Of a stretch of DNA of 36,409 nt, positions 13,180 through 28,888 are shown one piece after another (positions within the stretch are counted from its first letter, which is position 1; each line of letters begins with the position of its first letter). Source of the DNA: Patescibacteria group bacterium (lineage in GTDB: Bacteria; Patescibacteriota; Patescibacteriia; 2-12-FULL-60-25); contig JAKLEH010000009.1 in the NCBI GenBank assembly GCA_022703155.1, forward strand, positions 1 to 36,409, in the 5' to 3' direction. A program made the translations under genes and the position numbers. The notes below the pieces were generated by a model, which saw only the letters and a list, made by a program, of their open reading frames with translations, was not told the origin of the DNA and made no database searches.

Positions 13180-13194
13180 ACTTAATTTTAACAA

Positions 13195-13239
13195 CGACCC
13201 CTCCATTCCTCCCCTATTAGGGGAGGAATGGAGGGGTCG
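13195..13239. repeat. Perfect 20-bp hairpin between convergent genes
   Basis: The arms 13195-13214 (starts CGACCCCTCC, ends CCTCCCC) and 13220-13239 are perfectly complementary around loop TATTA. It lies between the convergent phosphatase and oxidoreductase genes. There is no T-run, yet the position fits a shared transcription end. The all-pyrimidine/all-purine arms are unusual. Confidence 0.8.
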
Positions 13240-13250
13240 AGATTAACATT

Positions 13251-15266: not shown

Positions 15267-15362
15267 TGTCCACAACAGTATATGCATTACCGGACGGTTT
15301 GTCTAAAACCAAGGTCGAGCATGTAGCCCGGAGCCCGGAGAGCGGCACAAGGGGAGTCAAAA

Positions 15363-15424
15363 TTCGAGATTCAAGATTCAAGATTCAAGATTCGGGATTC
15401 AAGATTCGGGATTCGAGATTCGGA
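15363..15424. repeat. Heptad array (TTCAAGA-type, at least 8 units)
   Basis: Consecutive 7-nt units from 15363: TTCGAGA, TTCAAGA three times, TTCGGGA, TTCAAGA, TTCGGGA, TTCGAGA, then a partial unit. Every unit keeps TTC and the final GA. 15425-15530 continues with shorter GGACC-type and GCGCTTC repeats. Confidence 0.8.
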
Positions 15425-15542
15425 TTAGTGTTTAGCGCTTCGGACCATAGGACCGAGCCCTCGGACTATCGGACCCGGGATCAGCGCTTCGCGCTTCGCG
15501 CTCTTATCCACACTCCGGCCACAAACAATCCACGAAATGGAT

Positions 15543-23422: not shown

Positions 23423-23425
23423 ACA

Positions 23426-23536
23426 GTTTCGAGTTTCGTGTCTCGAGTTTCGAGAAGCGCCGCAAGGCGCTTTTTGACTAAAACATACATGGACGATAAT
23501 CTTGTCATACTCGAAACTAGAAACTAGAAACTCACA
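23426..23536. repeat. Split heptad array: GTTTCGA-type arm and ACTAGAA-type arm
   Basis: Left arm of 7-nt units from 23426: GTTTCGA, GTTTCGT, GTCTCGA, GTTTCGA. Right arm from 23509: ACTCGAA, ACTAGAA twice, ACTCACA. The two arms are reverse complements in kind. The right arm stops 3 nt before the ATG of the next gene (23540). The rplA terminator sits between the arms. Confidence 0.8.
23455..23475 (+). terminator. Terminator of rplA
   Basis: AAGCGCC, loop GCAA, GGCGCTT, T-run. Lies between the two arms of the heptad array. Confidence 0.85.
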
Positions 23537-23539
23537 ACT

Positions 23540-24103
23540 ATGAAAATCATCCTCGGTTTCGTAGGCCAAGCCGGTTCGGGCAAGGGCACGGCCGCCAACA
23601 CGTTGCGCCTCAAACACGGCGCCACGGTCTACGCCTTTGGCGACATCCTGCACGACATCCTCAACCGCCTCTTTTTGCCGCCGTCGCGCGATTTTCTGAT
23701 AAAACTTTCCCAAACCTTGCGCCAAACCTTCGGACAGGACGCTTTGGCCAACGCCATGGAAAAACAGGTGGACGAGTCACGCGCCGAACTGATCGTGGTC
23801 GACGGCATCCGCAGGCCGGAGGATATCGAGGATTTGCGCAAAAACCCTTCATTCCACTTGATTGAAATTTCGGCCTCGCCCGAAACCCGCTTTGAACGGC
23901 TCAAAAAACGCGGCGAAAAACCCGACGAAGCGGCCATGACTTGGGAAGACTTTCTGGCCATGAGCCAGCGCGAAACCGAAGCCACGATCGCGGCCGTGGC
24001 CGCGCAAGCGGAAAAGAAAATCACCAACGAAGGCGACCTGGCCGCGCTGGAGAAACAGATTGAGGAATTGGTTGCGGGATTAAGGCAAAGCGCGTCATGC
24101 TGA
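23540..24103 (+). CDS. P-loop kinase, dephospho-CoA kinase / nucleoside monophosphate kinase-like
   Basis: 187 aa. Walker A GQAGSGKGT at residues 9-17 with preceding strand IILGFV; VVDGIRRPEDIEDLR (near 91-105) is the DGxR segment typical of dNMP kinases and adenylate-kinase-like enzymes; then SPETRFERLKKRG as the arginine-rich lid. The partners are dut, a thymidylate synthase and thymidylate kinase just downstream, so a nucleotide substrate is likely; dephospho-CoA kinase is the alternative. The last five codons (QSASC) and the TGA stop come from palindromic element E, so the original C-terminus may have been changed by insertion. The start abuts a heptad array, with no Shine-Dalgarno site. 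Confidence 0.75.
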   Translation: MKIILGFVGQAGSGKGTAANTLRLKHGATVYAFGDILHDILNRLFLPPSRDFLIKLSQTLRQTFGQDALANAMEKQVDESRAELIVVDGIRRPEDIEDLRKNPSFHLIEISASPETRFERLKKRGEKPDEAAMTWEDFLAMSQRETEATIAAVAAQAEKKITNEGDLAALEKQIEELVAGLRQSASC

Positions 24104-24187
24104 ACCTGTTTCAGCATCTTTGTTAATCGCGTCCAACATGGTGCGTAGAACGCTCTAAATTAGACCCTGAAACAAGTTCAGGGTGAC
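24094..24187. repeat. GTCAT-ended palindromic element E (94 bp), overlapping a gene end
   Basis: Two inverted hairpins, GTCATGCTGAAC..TTCAGCATC and AGACCCTGAAAC..TTCAGGGTGAC. The right end reads GTGAC in place of ATGAC. Its left end overlaps the last 10 nt of the kinase gene and supplies its stop codon; its right end is 10 nt before the dut ATG. Confidence 0.8.
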
Positions 24188-24631: not shown

Positions 24632-24740
24632 TTCAAGGGGTTTGTAAGGTTTGTAAGGTTCGTAAAGTTTATAAAGTTCGTAAAATAGACTGAACTGCAC
24701 ACGGCTTTATACACTTTATAAACATTACGAACGTTAAACC
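24632..24740. repeat. Self-complementary nonad array (TTTGTAAGG-type)
   Basis: Left arm: six 9-nt units at 24632-24685, e.g. TTTGTAAGG twice, TTCGTAAAG, TTTATAAAG. Right arm: about four 9-nt units at 24702-24740 (ACACTTTAT, AAACATTAC, GAACGTTAA, then CCCC) that are reverse complements of the left ones. The arms can form a long imperfect hairpin between dut and the next gene. Confidence 0.8.
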
Positions 24741-24876: not shown

Positions 24877-26442
24877 ATGACCAACGACAAACCCGAAAAG
24901 GCCGCCAAACTCGTGCAGCCGCAAGACCCGGCCGCGCGGCGCGTGTACTGGCTCAATCATATCCGCGCCAAACGCGAAGACGGCGAAGTGGCGGATTTGC
25001 GGCCCACGCCCGAACAGCTGGCCGTGGCCGTGGCCAAATGCTCGCGTTCCACCACGCCTTTCGACCAGAACGTGGACGACGTATCGCTCGAGAAGGCGGC
25101 CGAATTCCACGAAAAATGGGTCGTGGGTTACGGACACGCGTCCGTGGCCGAGCATGCGGTCGCGTCCGTGGCCTTCCAGAACGTGCCCCAAGTCATCGTC
25201 AAAATTTTGGAGGACGCGCGCCTGGCGTCGTTCACGGAAAAATCCTCGCGCTACCAGGTCTTCACCCGCGACCGCGTGGGCGTGCCCAAAACTTTGGTCC
25301 AGCATCCGCTCATGGAAAACGTCAACGGCCTGTTCGACGCGCTCTACGGCCTGTACGACGAATGCTATCCCCTGTTCGCCGACTACTTCCGCGCGCGCCA
25401 TCCGCAACCCGCCGACCAGCCGGACGCGGCTTACAACGCCACGCTCAAAGCCATGGTGTGCGACCGGACGCGCTATCTGTTGCCGGCCGCTTCGCTGACC
25501 TCGCTCGGCATGACGGCCAACGCGCGCGTCTGGGAGCGCGCCATCGTCAAACTCCTCTCGTCGACCGATTCGTTGGCCAGGCAAATCGGCGAAGAGGTCA
25601 AGGGCGTGCTTAAAGGTTTCGCGCACCTGGACCACGACCAGGCGCTCAAGCACTTTCCGTTCCCCACCTTGCTCAAATACGCCGACCCGAACGGTTACCA
25701 GACGAATTTGGAAAACGACATCTTGGCCAGCGCGCCGCAACTCGACGGCGCGTCCGAGAGCGACCATGCCGTGGCCACGTCCGAGCGGCCCGTGGTCTGC
25801 ACCTGCGACGACGCGGCGGCCGAACTGCGTATCGCCTCCACCCTGCTCGCCAAATACGCGCGCTTGCCGCTTTCCGTGGCCATGGACGCCTTGGCGCGCG
25901 ATTCGCGGAAGCGCGACGCCGTACTCAAAGCCGCGGTCCAAAACCGCGGCCCACACGACGCCCCGCCGCGCGAATTCGAAAACGCCTGGTTCCAGCACGA
26001 AATCGTCATGGACTACGGCGCGTGGCGCGACATCCAGCGACACCGCATCTGTTCGCCCAGCAACCAGGCTTTGGGCACGGATTTGGGTTACGACATGCCA
26101 GAGGAATTCGCGGACATCGGCAAGGACAAGGAATTCGCCGACGTGATGGACACGGCACGCGACCTGCACCAGGCCATCCTCTCGGCCGGCCTCAAGTGCG
26201 AAGCCGAATACGTGGTGCCCATGGCCTACCGCCGCCGCATGGTGGTGGGTTGGAACCTGCGCGAACTCTTCCATTTCATCGAATTGCGCTCTGGCAAAAA
26301 AGGCCACCCTTCCTACCGTCGCATCGCCCAAAACATCTGGCGCACGCTGGATGAAGCCCATCCCTTGCTCGCCTCTTTCATCCGCGTGGACCTCTCGGGC
26401 ACGAGCGTGGGCACGCTCGGGGAAAAACCCAAGGGGTTCTGA
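24877..26442 (+). CDS. FAD-dependent thymidylate synthase, two ThyX-like halves fused
   Basis: 521 aa, about twice the size of ThyX (220-250 aa). It should convert dUMP to dTMP with methylene-tetrahydrofolate and FADH2. The N-terminal half (about 40-265) has ThyX-like HASVAEHA, FTEKSSRYQVF and DRTRYLLPAASLTSLGMTANARVWERAI, but only a degenerate RHR motif. The C-terminal half (about 312-521) has QRHRICSPSNQ (387-397), matching the ThyX signature RHRxxSxN, and ELRSGKKGHPSYRRIA in place of the usual ELRT..AQxEIR. The halves may share one active site across the pseudo-dimer. GGAGG lies 6-7 nt before the ATG. No thyA is seen in the window. Confidence 0.88.
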   Translation: MTNDKPEKAAKLVQPQDPAARRVYWLNHIRAKREDGEVADLRPTPEQLAVAVAKCSRSTTPFDQNVDDVSLEKAAEFHEKWVVGYGHASVAEHAVASVAFQNVPQVIVKILEDARLASFTEKSSRYQVFTRDRVGVPKTLVQHPLMENVNGLFDALYGLYDECYPLFADYFRARHPQPADQPDAAYNATLKAMVCDRTRYLLPAASLTSLGMTANARVWERAIVKLLSSTDSLARQIGEEVKGVLKGFAHLDHDQALKHFPFPTLLKYADPNGYQTNLENDILASAPQLDGASESDHAVATSERPVVCTCDDAAAELRIASTLLAKYARLPLSVAMDALARDSRKRDAVLKAAVQNRGPHDAPPREFENAWFQHEIVMDYGAWRDIQRHRICSPSNQALGTDLGYDMPEEFADIGKDKEFADVMDTARDLHQAILSAGLKCEAEYVVPMAYRRRMVVGWNLRELFHFIELRSGKKGHPSYRRIAQNIWRTLDEAHPLLASFIRVDLSGTSVGTLGEKPKGF

Positions 26443-26445
26443 TGG

Positions 26446-26547
26446 AATGACCAAATTCCAATAACCAATGACCAAAAACGGAGTTTTTTATATTTTCCAA
26501 AAGTGTCAATTTGGCAATTGGTGATTGGTTATTGGTAATTGGTCATT
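26446..26547. repeat. Self-complementary heptad array (AATGACC / GGTCATT)
   Basis: Left arm 26446-26473: AATGACC, AAATTCC, AATAACC, AATGACC. Right arm 26513-26547: GGCAATT, GGTGATT, GGTTATT, GGTAATT, GGTCATT. The arms are in exact 7-nt register and complementary. A T-run follows the right arm, so it could also end thyX transcription. It fills the gap before tmk. Confidence 0.85.
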
Positions 26548-26591
26548 CGATTTTTTATATTTCATCAACCATTTGTTAATATACCCATACT

Positions 26592-27440
26592 ATGATCACC
26601 CGCCAACCAACTGACGGCCCCCTGCTCGTAGTCGAAGGCATTGACGGCTCGGGCAAATCCACGATCCTTAAGGCCTGTAAGGATTGGGCCACGGAACGCG
26701 GGCTGAAAATTTTCGACGTGGTCGAATTCAGCGAGCGCGAACACCGCCTGCCCGACCTTAAAGACATCGGCGACGCCCAAGCGCTCATGGCTGCCGAGCC
26801 GTGTTTTTGTTGGACCGGCGACGCCATCCGGCAGGAAATCATCGCGCGCCACGAGGACAGGGAGTGCGTAACGTGTAACGCGAAACGCGCAACGCTGGAA
26901 ACGGCCACCCCTCAGACGTTACACGATACACGTTGCGCGTTGCACGACATCCGTTACACCGGCCTGGAAACGGCGGAAGCGTTCGCGCTCGACCGTCTGG
27001 TGCTGTTCCGGCGCGTCATCATCCCGTTCCTGCAAAACCGGCCGGACCGCATCGTATTCAAAGACCGCGGCGTAGGCTCTTCGCTCGCCTATCAGCCGCT
27101 TCAGGACGCGACCCTCACTACGGCCAGGCTGCTGGAACTGTCGGGCAACGCCCAAAGCACAGCCTTCGCCCCCACGTTGCTGGTTTTGGTGCGGACCGAG
27201 GCGGCCGCGGCCATGGCCCGTTTGGAAGGCCGCACGGACAAACAGGACAACGTGATTTTTGAGGAACGCGGGTTCCAGGAAAGGCTGGCCATCCGTTTTT
27301 TGTCGGACGGCGTGCTTGGCCCGTTCCGCCAAGCCGGCACGGACATCGTGGAATTGGACGGCAATTTGCCCATGGACGCCATGGCCGCGGCCGCCCAAAC
27401 CATGCTCTCGCAAAAATTGGCCGATTTTGCTAAGCTTTAG
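26592..27440 (+). CDS. tmk: Thymidylate kinase-like protein with in-frame repeat insertion
   Basis: 282 aa, longer than the usual 200-215 aa. P-loop GIDGSGKST at residues 16-24; FALDRLVLFRR is the DR segment; FKDRGVGSSLAYQP follows, and VIFEERGFQERLAIRF lies near the C-terminus. The enzyme phosphorylates dTMP to dTDP, the step after ThyX. Residues about 92-122 are encoded by a self-complementary heptad array (26867-26958) and have no counterpart in Tmk; they lie between the P-loop half and the DR helix. Residues 40-90 are also longer than usual. The -10-like TAATAT at 26577-26582 is 9 nt before the ATG. Alternative: another dNMP kinase of the same fold. Confidence 0.8.
   Translation: MITRQPTDGPLLVVEGIDGSGKSTILKACKDWATERGLKIFDVVEFSEREHRLPDLKDIGDAQALMAAEPCFCWTGDAIRQEIIARHEDRECVTCNAKRATLETATPQTLHDTRCALHDIRYTGLETAEAFALDRLVLFRRVIIPFLQNRPDRIVFKDRGVGSSLAYQPLQDATLTTARLLELSGNAQSTAFAPTLLVLVRTEAAAAMARLEGRTDKQDNVIFEERGFQERLAIRFLSDGVLGPFRQAGTDIVELDGNLPMDAMAAAAQTMLSQKLADFAKL
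26867..26958. repeat. Heptad array inside the thymidylate kinase gene
   Basis: Left arm 26867-26894: CGTAACG, TGTAACG, CGAAACG, CGCAACG. Right arm 26917-26958: CGTTACA, CGATACA, CGTTGCG, CGTTGCA, CGACATC, CGTTACA. On opposite strands both arms read CGTTnnn. The total insertion keeps the reading frame open with no stop. Confidence 0.85.
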
Positions 27441-28814: not shown

Positions 28815-28881
28815 AAAAATCCAAATTTCAAACAGCAAACAACAATCCGACTTTTTGCTGTTTGCTGTTTGTTGTTTGAAG
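28815..28881. repeat. Self-complementary heptad array (AGCAAAC / TTTGCTG), next to gatB start
   Basis: Left arm 28815-28848 with units such as TTCAAAC, AGCAAAC; right arm 28854-28881: TTTGCTG twice, TTTGTTG, TTTGAAG. The right arm ends 7 nt before the gatB ATG. Confidence 0.8.
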
Positions 28882-28888
28882 ATTTTCT

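Follow-up and report, generated by a model that had tools for sequence, protein, structure and literature searches.

The thymidylate kinase gene (tmk) in the window, by which we mean the whole 36,409-nucleotide (nt) stretch of DNA analyzed here, carries a degenerate heptad hairpin array that is not a member of the Rickettsia palindromic element (RPE), REP, or intron families. Judging from alignments to congeners, the array-bearing segment is a lineage-specific gain in a loop of Tmk that was already variable. The source genome (designated G000) is a 1.23-Mb draft from an uncultured Patescibacterium, and the window is the last of its 55 contigs by number (contig 55); in an alignment-based scan of Tmk, the nearest named relatives of G000 are Candidatus Uhrbacteria (Patescibacteria). 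Features of the array, its host gene, and other repeats of the window are collected in Table 1.

Table 1. Coordinates, in the window, of the tmk array and of other heptad repeats
Feature	Position	Strand	Basis
tmk (product thymidylate kinase, 282 aa), in which the array lies	26592..27440	+	Pfam PF02223, structure match, orthologues
Left arm of the tmk array: four nnnAACG heptads, CGTAACG TGTAACG CGAAACG CGCAACG	26867..26895	+	AACG spacing, lag-7 identity 0.82
Central loop of the tmk array, heptad-free, 21 nt	26896..26916	+	Read from the sequence
Right arm of the tmk array: six CGTTnnn-like heptads, CGTTACA CGATACA CGTTGCG CGTTGCA CGACATC CGTTACA	26917..26958	+	Register, inverted repeat
CGT TAC codons (R121-Y122), the invariant native Arg-Tyr of Tmk and also the last heptad	26952..26957	+	Protein alignment, DNA
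ATTGGTn hairpin of the spacer between thyX and tmk, with T6 after it	26442..26551 (arms 26442-26475 and 26518-26551)		Inverted repeat
Spacer hairpin preceding a gatB-like gene, AAACAGC / GCTGTTT	28815..28885		Lag-7 and hairpin scan
Spacer after rplA, filled by TTTCGAG / CTCGAAA arms whose loop contains a plain GC hairpin plus T5	23425..23539		
Single-armed ATTCAAG/ATTCGAG/ATTCGGG heptads, outside large ORFs	15342..15445		Lag-7 identity 0.86

The original prediction described a self-complementary heptad array lying in frame within tmk, and the register of the units and two repeat statistics confirm it. AACG starts at 26870, 26877, 26884, and 26891 in the left arm, a spacing of exactly 7 nt, and the CGTT starts of the right arm (26917, 26931, 26938, and 26952) keep a single 7-nt register, the slots of which at 26924 and 26945 are filled by CGAT and CGAC; the right-arm heptad is the inverse complement of the left-arm heptad. 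Over the 92 nt of the array (26867-26958), identity at lag 7 was 50/85, compared with 0.16-0.18 (14-15 matches) at lags 6 and 8, and the inverted-repeat score was 15. Shuffling the bases or the codons, 2000 times each, never produced the lag-7 or the inverted-repeat value; among coding 92-mers of the same genome, the lag-7 identity was equaled or exceeded by only 3 of 9917, and the inverted-repeat score by 1 of 3000. An independent detection of inverted repeats returned 26868-26894 paired with 26931-26957 at 78% complementarity. The predicted complementarity of the two arms held for the heptad core but not fully for the three variable bases. RNA folding of the segment gave an ordinary stability (z = -0.31), on which ground an RNA hairpin selected for stability was rejected for tmk.

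The assignment of the host gene was supported by a match of its product to the Pfam family PF02223 (Thymidylate_kin, E 3e-12) and by an AlphaFold model of the array-bearing protein that resembles Tmk structures in the PDB. As predicted, the reading frame stays open through the array (codons 92-121). In the model, residues 90-121 have a pLDDT of about 50, compared with a mean of 89.7 for the whole protein, and sit between two confident helices on a confident Tmk fold; the expectation that structure prediction would place the array in a surface loop was thus borne out, with the loop modeled at low confidence. The protein had also been described as about 70 aa longer than normal, and this is correct relative to the Tmk of E. 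coli or Thermus (~200-213 aa) but not as a measure of the array. Because array-free congeners already have a Tmk of 255-263 aa, the array itself explains only some 20-28 residues of the ~70-aa excess, which is, by this comparison of lengths, mostly lineage background.

Orthologues of tmk were found in all eight congeners, and the Tmk alignments to seven of them were interrupted at residues ~89/~120. The array lies after a helix ending in ...EIIAKH and before the invariant Arg-Tyr that precedes GWETA, and the gap between these flanks is 33 aa in G000 versus 4-12 aa in the array-free congeners (e.g., ENENVP or ENGTV), in which the flanks of the loop are conserved. Two congeners have arrays of their own at these codons, a GTGACnC/GTCACGA hairpin in G005 and GACGTGG repeated four times in G001, and in G002, a sister of G005 with a 96% identical Tmk, the flanks match and there is no array. 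All three arrays extend into the native CGTTAY Arg-Tyr codons (CGTTAT in G005 and G001). In a tree built from ungapped LigA and Tmk columns (867 sites), G001 stands next to ((G002,G005),G003) and G000 beside (G006,(G004,(G007,G008))), so that the three carriers are scattered and all five close relatives between them are array-free. Since the heptads differ among the three carriers, the simplest account is that each gained its array independently or that a gained array was later re-worded. The finding of array-free congeners with intact flanks, which had been proposed as proof of insertion, establishes the segment as an in-frame gain, and the opposing supposition, that all relatives carry a conserved, nonrepetitive segment of the same length at this position, proved false.

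We then consider the array against the rest of the genome. Counting arrays by lag across the whole of G000 (42-nt windows with at least 64% identity at the given lag) gave 123 arrays at lag 7 versus 0-8 at lags 4, 5, 8, 10, 11, and 13. Lags 6 and 9 were also raised (16 and 72 windows), the lag-9 excess stemming in part from a second hairpin class with 9-nt units. Perfect period-7 stretches of at least 18 nt were present at 120 loci, a measure in which near-perfect head-to-tail heptad arrays are overrepresented, and about 64 of 175 strong hairpins had an arm lag-7 identity of at least 0.6. A stricter definition yielded 154 arrays, with CGGAGGT (26), CGAGTTT (24), ACATGTT (20), and ATTGGTT (16) as families; single-armed arrays exist as well. 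The claim that such arrays occur within genes and not in spacers alone was upheld, as 68 of the 154 are located well within ORFs that are at least 150 aa long; mnmA, prmC, and ligA also carry arrays. ORFs of this length make up 84% of the genome; they were called mechanically, so that the numbers of arrays close to gene ends are approximate. Genes are therefore avoided by arrays but are far from array-free. Both strands were free of stop codons in 57 of the 68 genic arrays versus 45 of the 86 others (Fisher p 4e-5); among random heptads, the proportion lacking stops on both strands is 50%. A perfect heptad array that is stop-free is open in all three frames of its strand, 7 and 3 being coprime.

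Several other repeats were observed. The hairpin at 26442-26551, just upstream of tmk, has arms whose variable bases mirror each other and looks like a terminator or an mRNA 3′ end element. A 423-aa ORF on the minus strand of contig C21 (L061:16576-17847) contains three separate hairpins with the CGTTnnn heptads seen in tmk. Hairpins of the second class, built of degenerate 9-nt units (AAGATTCAT / AAGATTTGT and AAAGTTCGT are examples), occur at 24654-24736 of the window and at about 35 other loci of G000, mostly in spacers. Another palindrome family, GTCATCCTGAACTCGTTTCAGGATCT / GTCATGCCGAACTCGTTTCGGCATC, is found at 24094-24187 and in spacers at several G000 loci, and a nearly perfect palindrome, CGACCCCTCCATTCCTCCCCT..AGGGGAGGAATGGAGGGGTCG, lies between two genes at 13184-13250.

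The wording of the heptads is bound to lineage, and we refer to each wording as a dialect. Three consecutive GTCGGAn units were matched 54 times in G000 and not once in the eight congeners; outside G000, a search of 54 genomes gave two matches, both in one distant genome. The tmk dialect (AACGCGn, three units) had 9 matches in G000 and 1 among the eight congeners, and ATTGGTn had 19 matches in G000, with a few others in G006, G008, and G054. In 380 kb of G001 there are 52 arrays, worded differently (CGTACAA, AATTATG, and ATTCGAT); the sisters G002 and G005, which are about 87% identical in aligned DNA, have a common wording (TTCGAGA, GTCACGT, and AATTGTT) with array positions that mostly differ. 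Only some hairpins of one dialect can be aligned over the two arms together (identity about 69-85%); that of tmk and one at C12:32462 are 74% identical over 85 nt. Hairpin alignments showed that ends and loops vary within a dialect and that the central loop of the tmk array differs from the loops of other hairpins in its dialect. The arms of a locus paired better with each other than with those of other loci of the dialect in 3 of 58 hairpins (mean excess -0.6), in a rough test in which arms were picked by their complementarity and other loci may have had longer arms. By this test, the arms fit the dialect pool rather than each other, and their origin as mirror copies, by snap-back copying or compensatory evolution, was rejected, since arms of one locus showed no advantage in pairing over those of foreign loci. 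The mirrored variable bases of the hairpin at 26442-26551 are accordingly no general trait.

Comparison of species showed that the same sites are used repeatedly, with different dialects. The LigA linker before the BRCT domain is of equal length in nine species and reads TTTCGAG in G000, CGTACAA in G001, GACGAGC in G006 and G008, and GTACGCG in G007; clear heptads were not seen there in G002, G003, and G005, and G004 is intermediate. For mnmA and prmC, G000, G001, and G005 were compared. The mnmA arrays of G000 and G001 differ, and G005 has a short loop, i.e., an empty site. The PrmC loop of G000 holds a GTCGGAn hairpin and that of G001 an array of the ATATCGA type, whereas in G005 (L243) an in-frame palindrome not made of heptads, CTCACCCCCTCCCCTCTC...GAGAGGGGTGCCGAAGGCGGGGTGAG, is found there. 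An array in a gene at C52:34886 of G000 corresponds to an empty site in G001. Between the sisters G002 and G005, two arrays were conserved and three were found in one sister only, and presence or absence with intact flanks was seen also at L266:6444. A glycosyltransferase array is worded TTTCGAG in G005 versus GTCACGA in G002, a spacer hairpin (L249:7366) AAGATAC in G005 versus ATTGGTA in G002, and the array at L265:5225 differs in length by 18 nt between these two species. At G005:C4:25009-25057 (L215) there is a TTACTCG heptad hairpin where G002:C15 has a plain GC-rich terminator. No target duplication was seen at the resolved sites of these sister comparisons, where instead a few native bases were replaced, the cases being few enough that a rare class could escape.

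Rickettsia palindromic elements fall into families whose consensus is conserved and about 100-150 nt long. The arrays described here resemble them as palindromic DNA lying in frame in unrelated essential genes, in surface segments, and absent from orthologues: insertion in frame with empty orthologous sites was found for tmk, for mnmA (empty in G005), and for C52:34886 (empty in G001), and the disordered-looking residues 90-121 match the surface placement. Instead of a single consensus, there is only a heptad vocabulary, with dialects replaced at sites. The parallel drawn in the original prediction therefore stands as a functional likeness but not as a common element sequence, since each genome has several dialects and no dedicated transposase was found. 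More general traits of transposable elements, such as target-site duplication and constant ends, were likewise not seen in the few cases compared.

The closest precedent is set by heptad hairpins in the group I intron of Nostoc tRNA-Leu(UAA). The P6b stem of this intron is made of degenerate heptads, either Class I (TDNGATT) or Class II (NNTGAGT), and at this fixed hairpin one class has repeatedly and independently given way to the other (PMC4476775). Both traits recur here, as degenerate heptads on both hairpin arms in tmk and in the strong hairpins counted above, and as alternative classes replaced at fixed sites (the ligA linker, the glycosyltransferase gene, and L249:7366). The Nostoc P6b is, however, one intron stem in Cyanobacteria, whereas here more than 100 loci per genome, in protein genes and spacers, carry many dialects; the tmk array lies in a protein-coding gene rather than in a P6b intron stem, and, unlike in P6b, the arms pair no better mutually than with other loci. 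A description of the TAACTGA arrays of Beggiatoaceae cites the idea that a unit length of 7 nt mirrors the contact length of the polymerase, by which slippage would be favored (PMC4679880). These arrays and the cyanobacterial STRR/LSSR repeats are similar to ours in being dispersed tandem 7-nt units of lineage-specific wording for which slippage is proposed, and in that frame and stop constraints decide their location; STRR and TAACTGA arrays lie mainly in spacers and repeat one unit directly, whereas those described here comprise many degenerate units, often opposed and often genic. The tandem repeats of Borgs create disordered protein regions (PMC9879509) and, like the present arrays, evolve fast, but they are perfect head-to-tail units, whereas the 7-nt units here are degenerate and the arms inverted. 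The palindromes of the REP/RAYT system (PMC3733652) are also short and present in many copies; they differ in that no Y1_Tnp gene was found here and heptads take the place of a tagged palindrome. In the open-access literature, the coverage of which was incomplete, we found no description of heptad or palindromic repeats in Patescibacteria.

Taken together, these data lead us to favor, as the probable origin, replication-borne heptad satellites that are gained by slippage and inter-array copying, kept where they are in frame and stop-free, and not moved as a transposon. Slippage by 7 nt during replication or repair would lengthen a heptad tract, and heptads would be copied from other arrays by ectopic template switching, which, in either orientation, would produce opposed arms and hence hairpins. 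Gain, in-frame retention, predicted disorder, the stop filter, shared private wording, and reuse of sites were shown; slippage and template switching we only infer, because intermediate or polymorphic array copy numbers were not seen among these species-level genomes. The array peptide would have no function for Tmk and would be tolerated because stop-free heptads read open in three frames and the loop is permissive. The description of the arrays as mobile thus suits the heptad wording and the array population more closely than it suits a discrete transposable element. The constant length of the LigA linker despite its changing dialect is hard to reconcile with simple slippage or insertion and calls for in-place overwriting or for balanced gain and loss. 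We also consider, as an unlikely alternative, that a trans-acting writing process maintains the genome-wide vocabulary and overwrites suitable sites, including linkers of essential proteins, with the current dialect, in which case sites would persist while their wording is exchanged. The at least four dialects found in the linker at constant length in nine species, and the different heptads at one hairpin in sister species, are consistent with such a process.

It is rather improbable that a transposase acting in trans put a discrete nonautonomous element (a MITE-, REP-, or RPE-like palindrome) into tmk. Presence and absence with intact flanks between G002 and G005, the many loci per dialect, and the alignment of some same-dialect pairs over both arms, such as tmk and C12:32462, would fit such an element, but loops and outer ends differ within one dialect, resolved sites show replaced native sequence without target duplication, several dialects and single-armed arrays coexist in one genome, and ligA arrays leave the length unchanged. 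In addition, a profile search of G000 for Y1_Tnp (PF01797) gave no match, whereas control genomes did, and a REP/RAYT origin was rejected on this ground. Growth of each array purely by local slippage from a short native repeat, without exchange between loci, has a smaller chance still of being correct. It would explain why all three tmk arrays extend into native CGTTAY codons, from which that of tmk would have grown, and 7-nt tracts are commonly ascribed to polymerase slippage (PMC4679880); identical heptads at unrelated loci, partly private to the genome, already disfavor it, opposed arms are not produced by local growth, and dialects are swapped at fixed sites between sisters.

We regard as quite improbable that the array is a selected element, either because the loop peptide serves Tmk or because an mRNA hairpin acts in translation pausing, stability, or processing. 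The preserved frame and stop-freedom, the CxxC-like residues C94 and C97 in the array peptide, and the intergenic arrays that stand at plain-terminator sites of a sister, where such hairpins may end transcripts in spacers, are in line with selection. Against it are the absence of the array from most congeners, the unrelated sequences in G005 and G001, the low model confidence of the loop, the folding z score given above, and partner arms without covariation. An assembly or binning artefact would be conceivable for a window from a draft genome of 55 contigs, yet its probability is minimal given that the reading frame is kept, that several independent genomes have arrays at the same and other sites, and that more than 100 arrays use a consistent vocabulary. 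We note that a stretch of contig C35 (L075:8221-9852) holds an RVT_1 reverse transcriptase gene (E 9e-16) adjoining an ORF with a DNVGFRP-like motif, a neighborhood that, by resemblance only, may be likened to a diversity-generating retroelement. This one reverse transcriptase (C35:8221-9252) was considered as a writer of the arrays and set aside, as no link to the heptads was found.

In this lineage, then, short degenerate repeats with a genome-specific vocabulary enter the essential proteins Tmk, MnmA, PrmC, and LigA repeatedly and in frame, at reusable sites and without a recognized transposase. The heptad behavior known from the Nostoc intron is thereby extended to whole genomes and to coding sequence. 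Trans-acting writing, if true, would represent a novel way for repeats to edit a genome, concerted and sequence-templated, and distinct from transposition. How noncoding repeats become protein sequence can be tested by comparing the filled, empty, and re-worded sites of different species, and the arrays serve as a warning that odd loops and length variation in Patescibacteria proteins may be repeat-borne.
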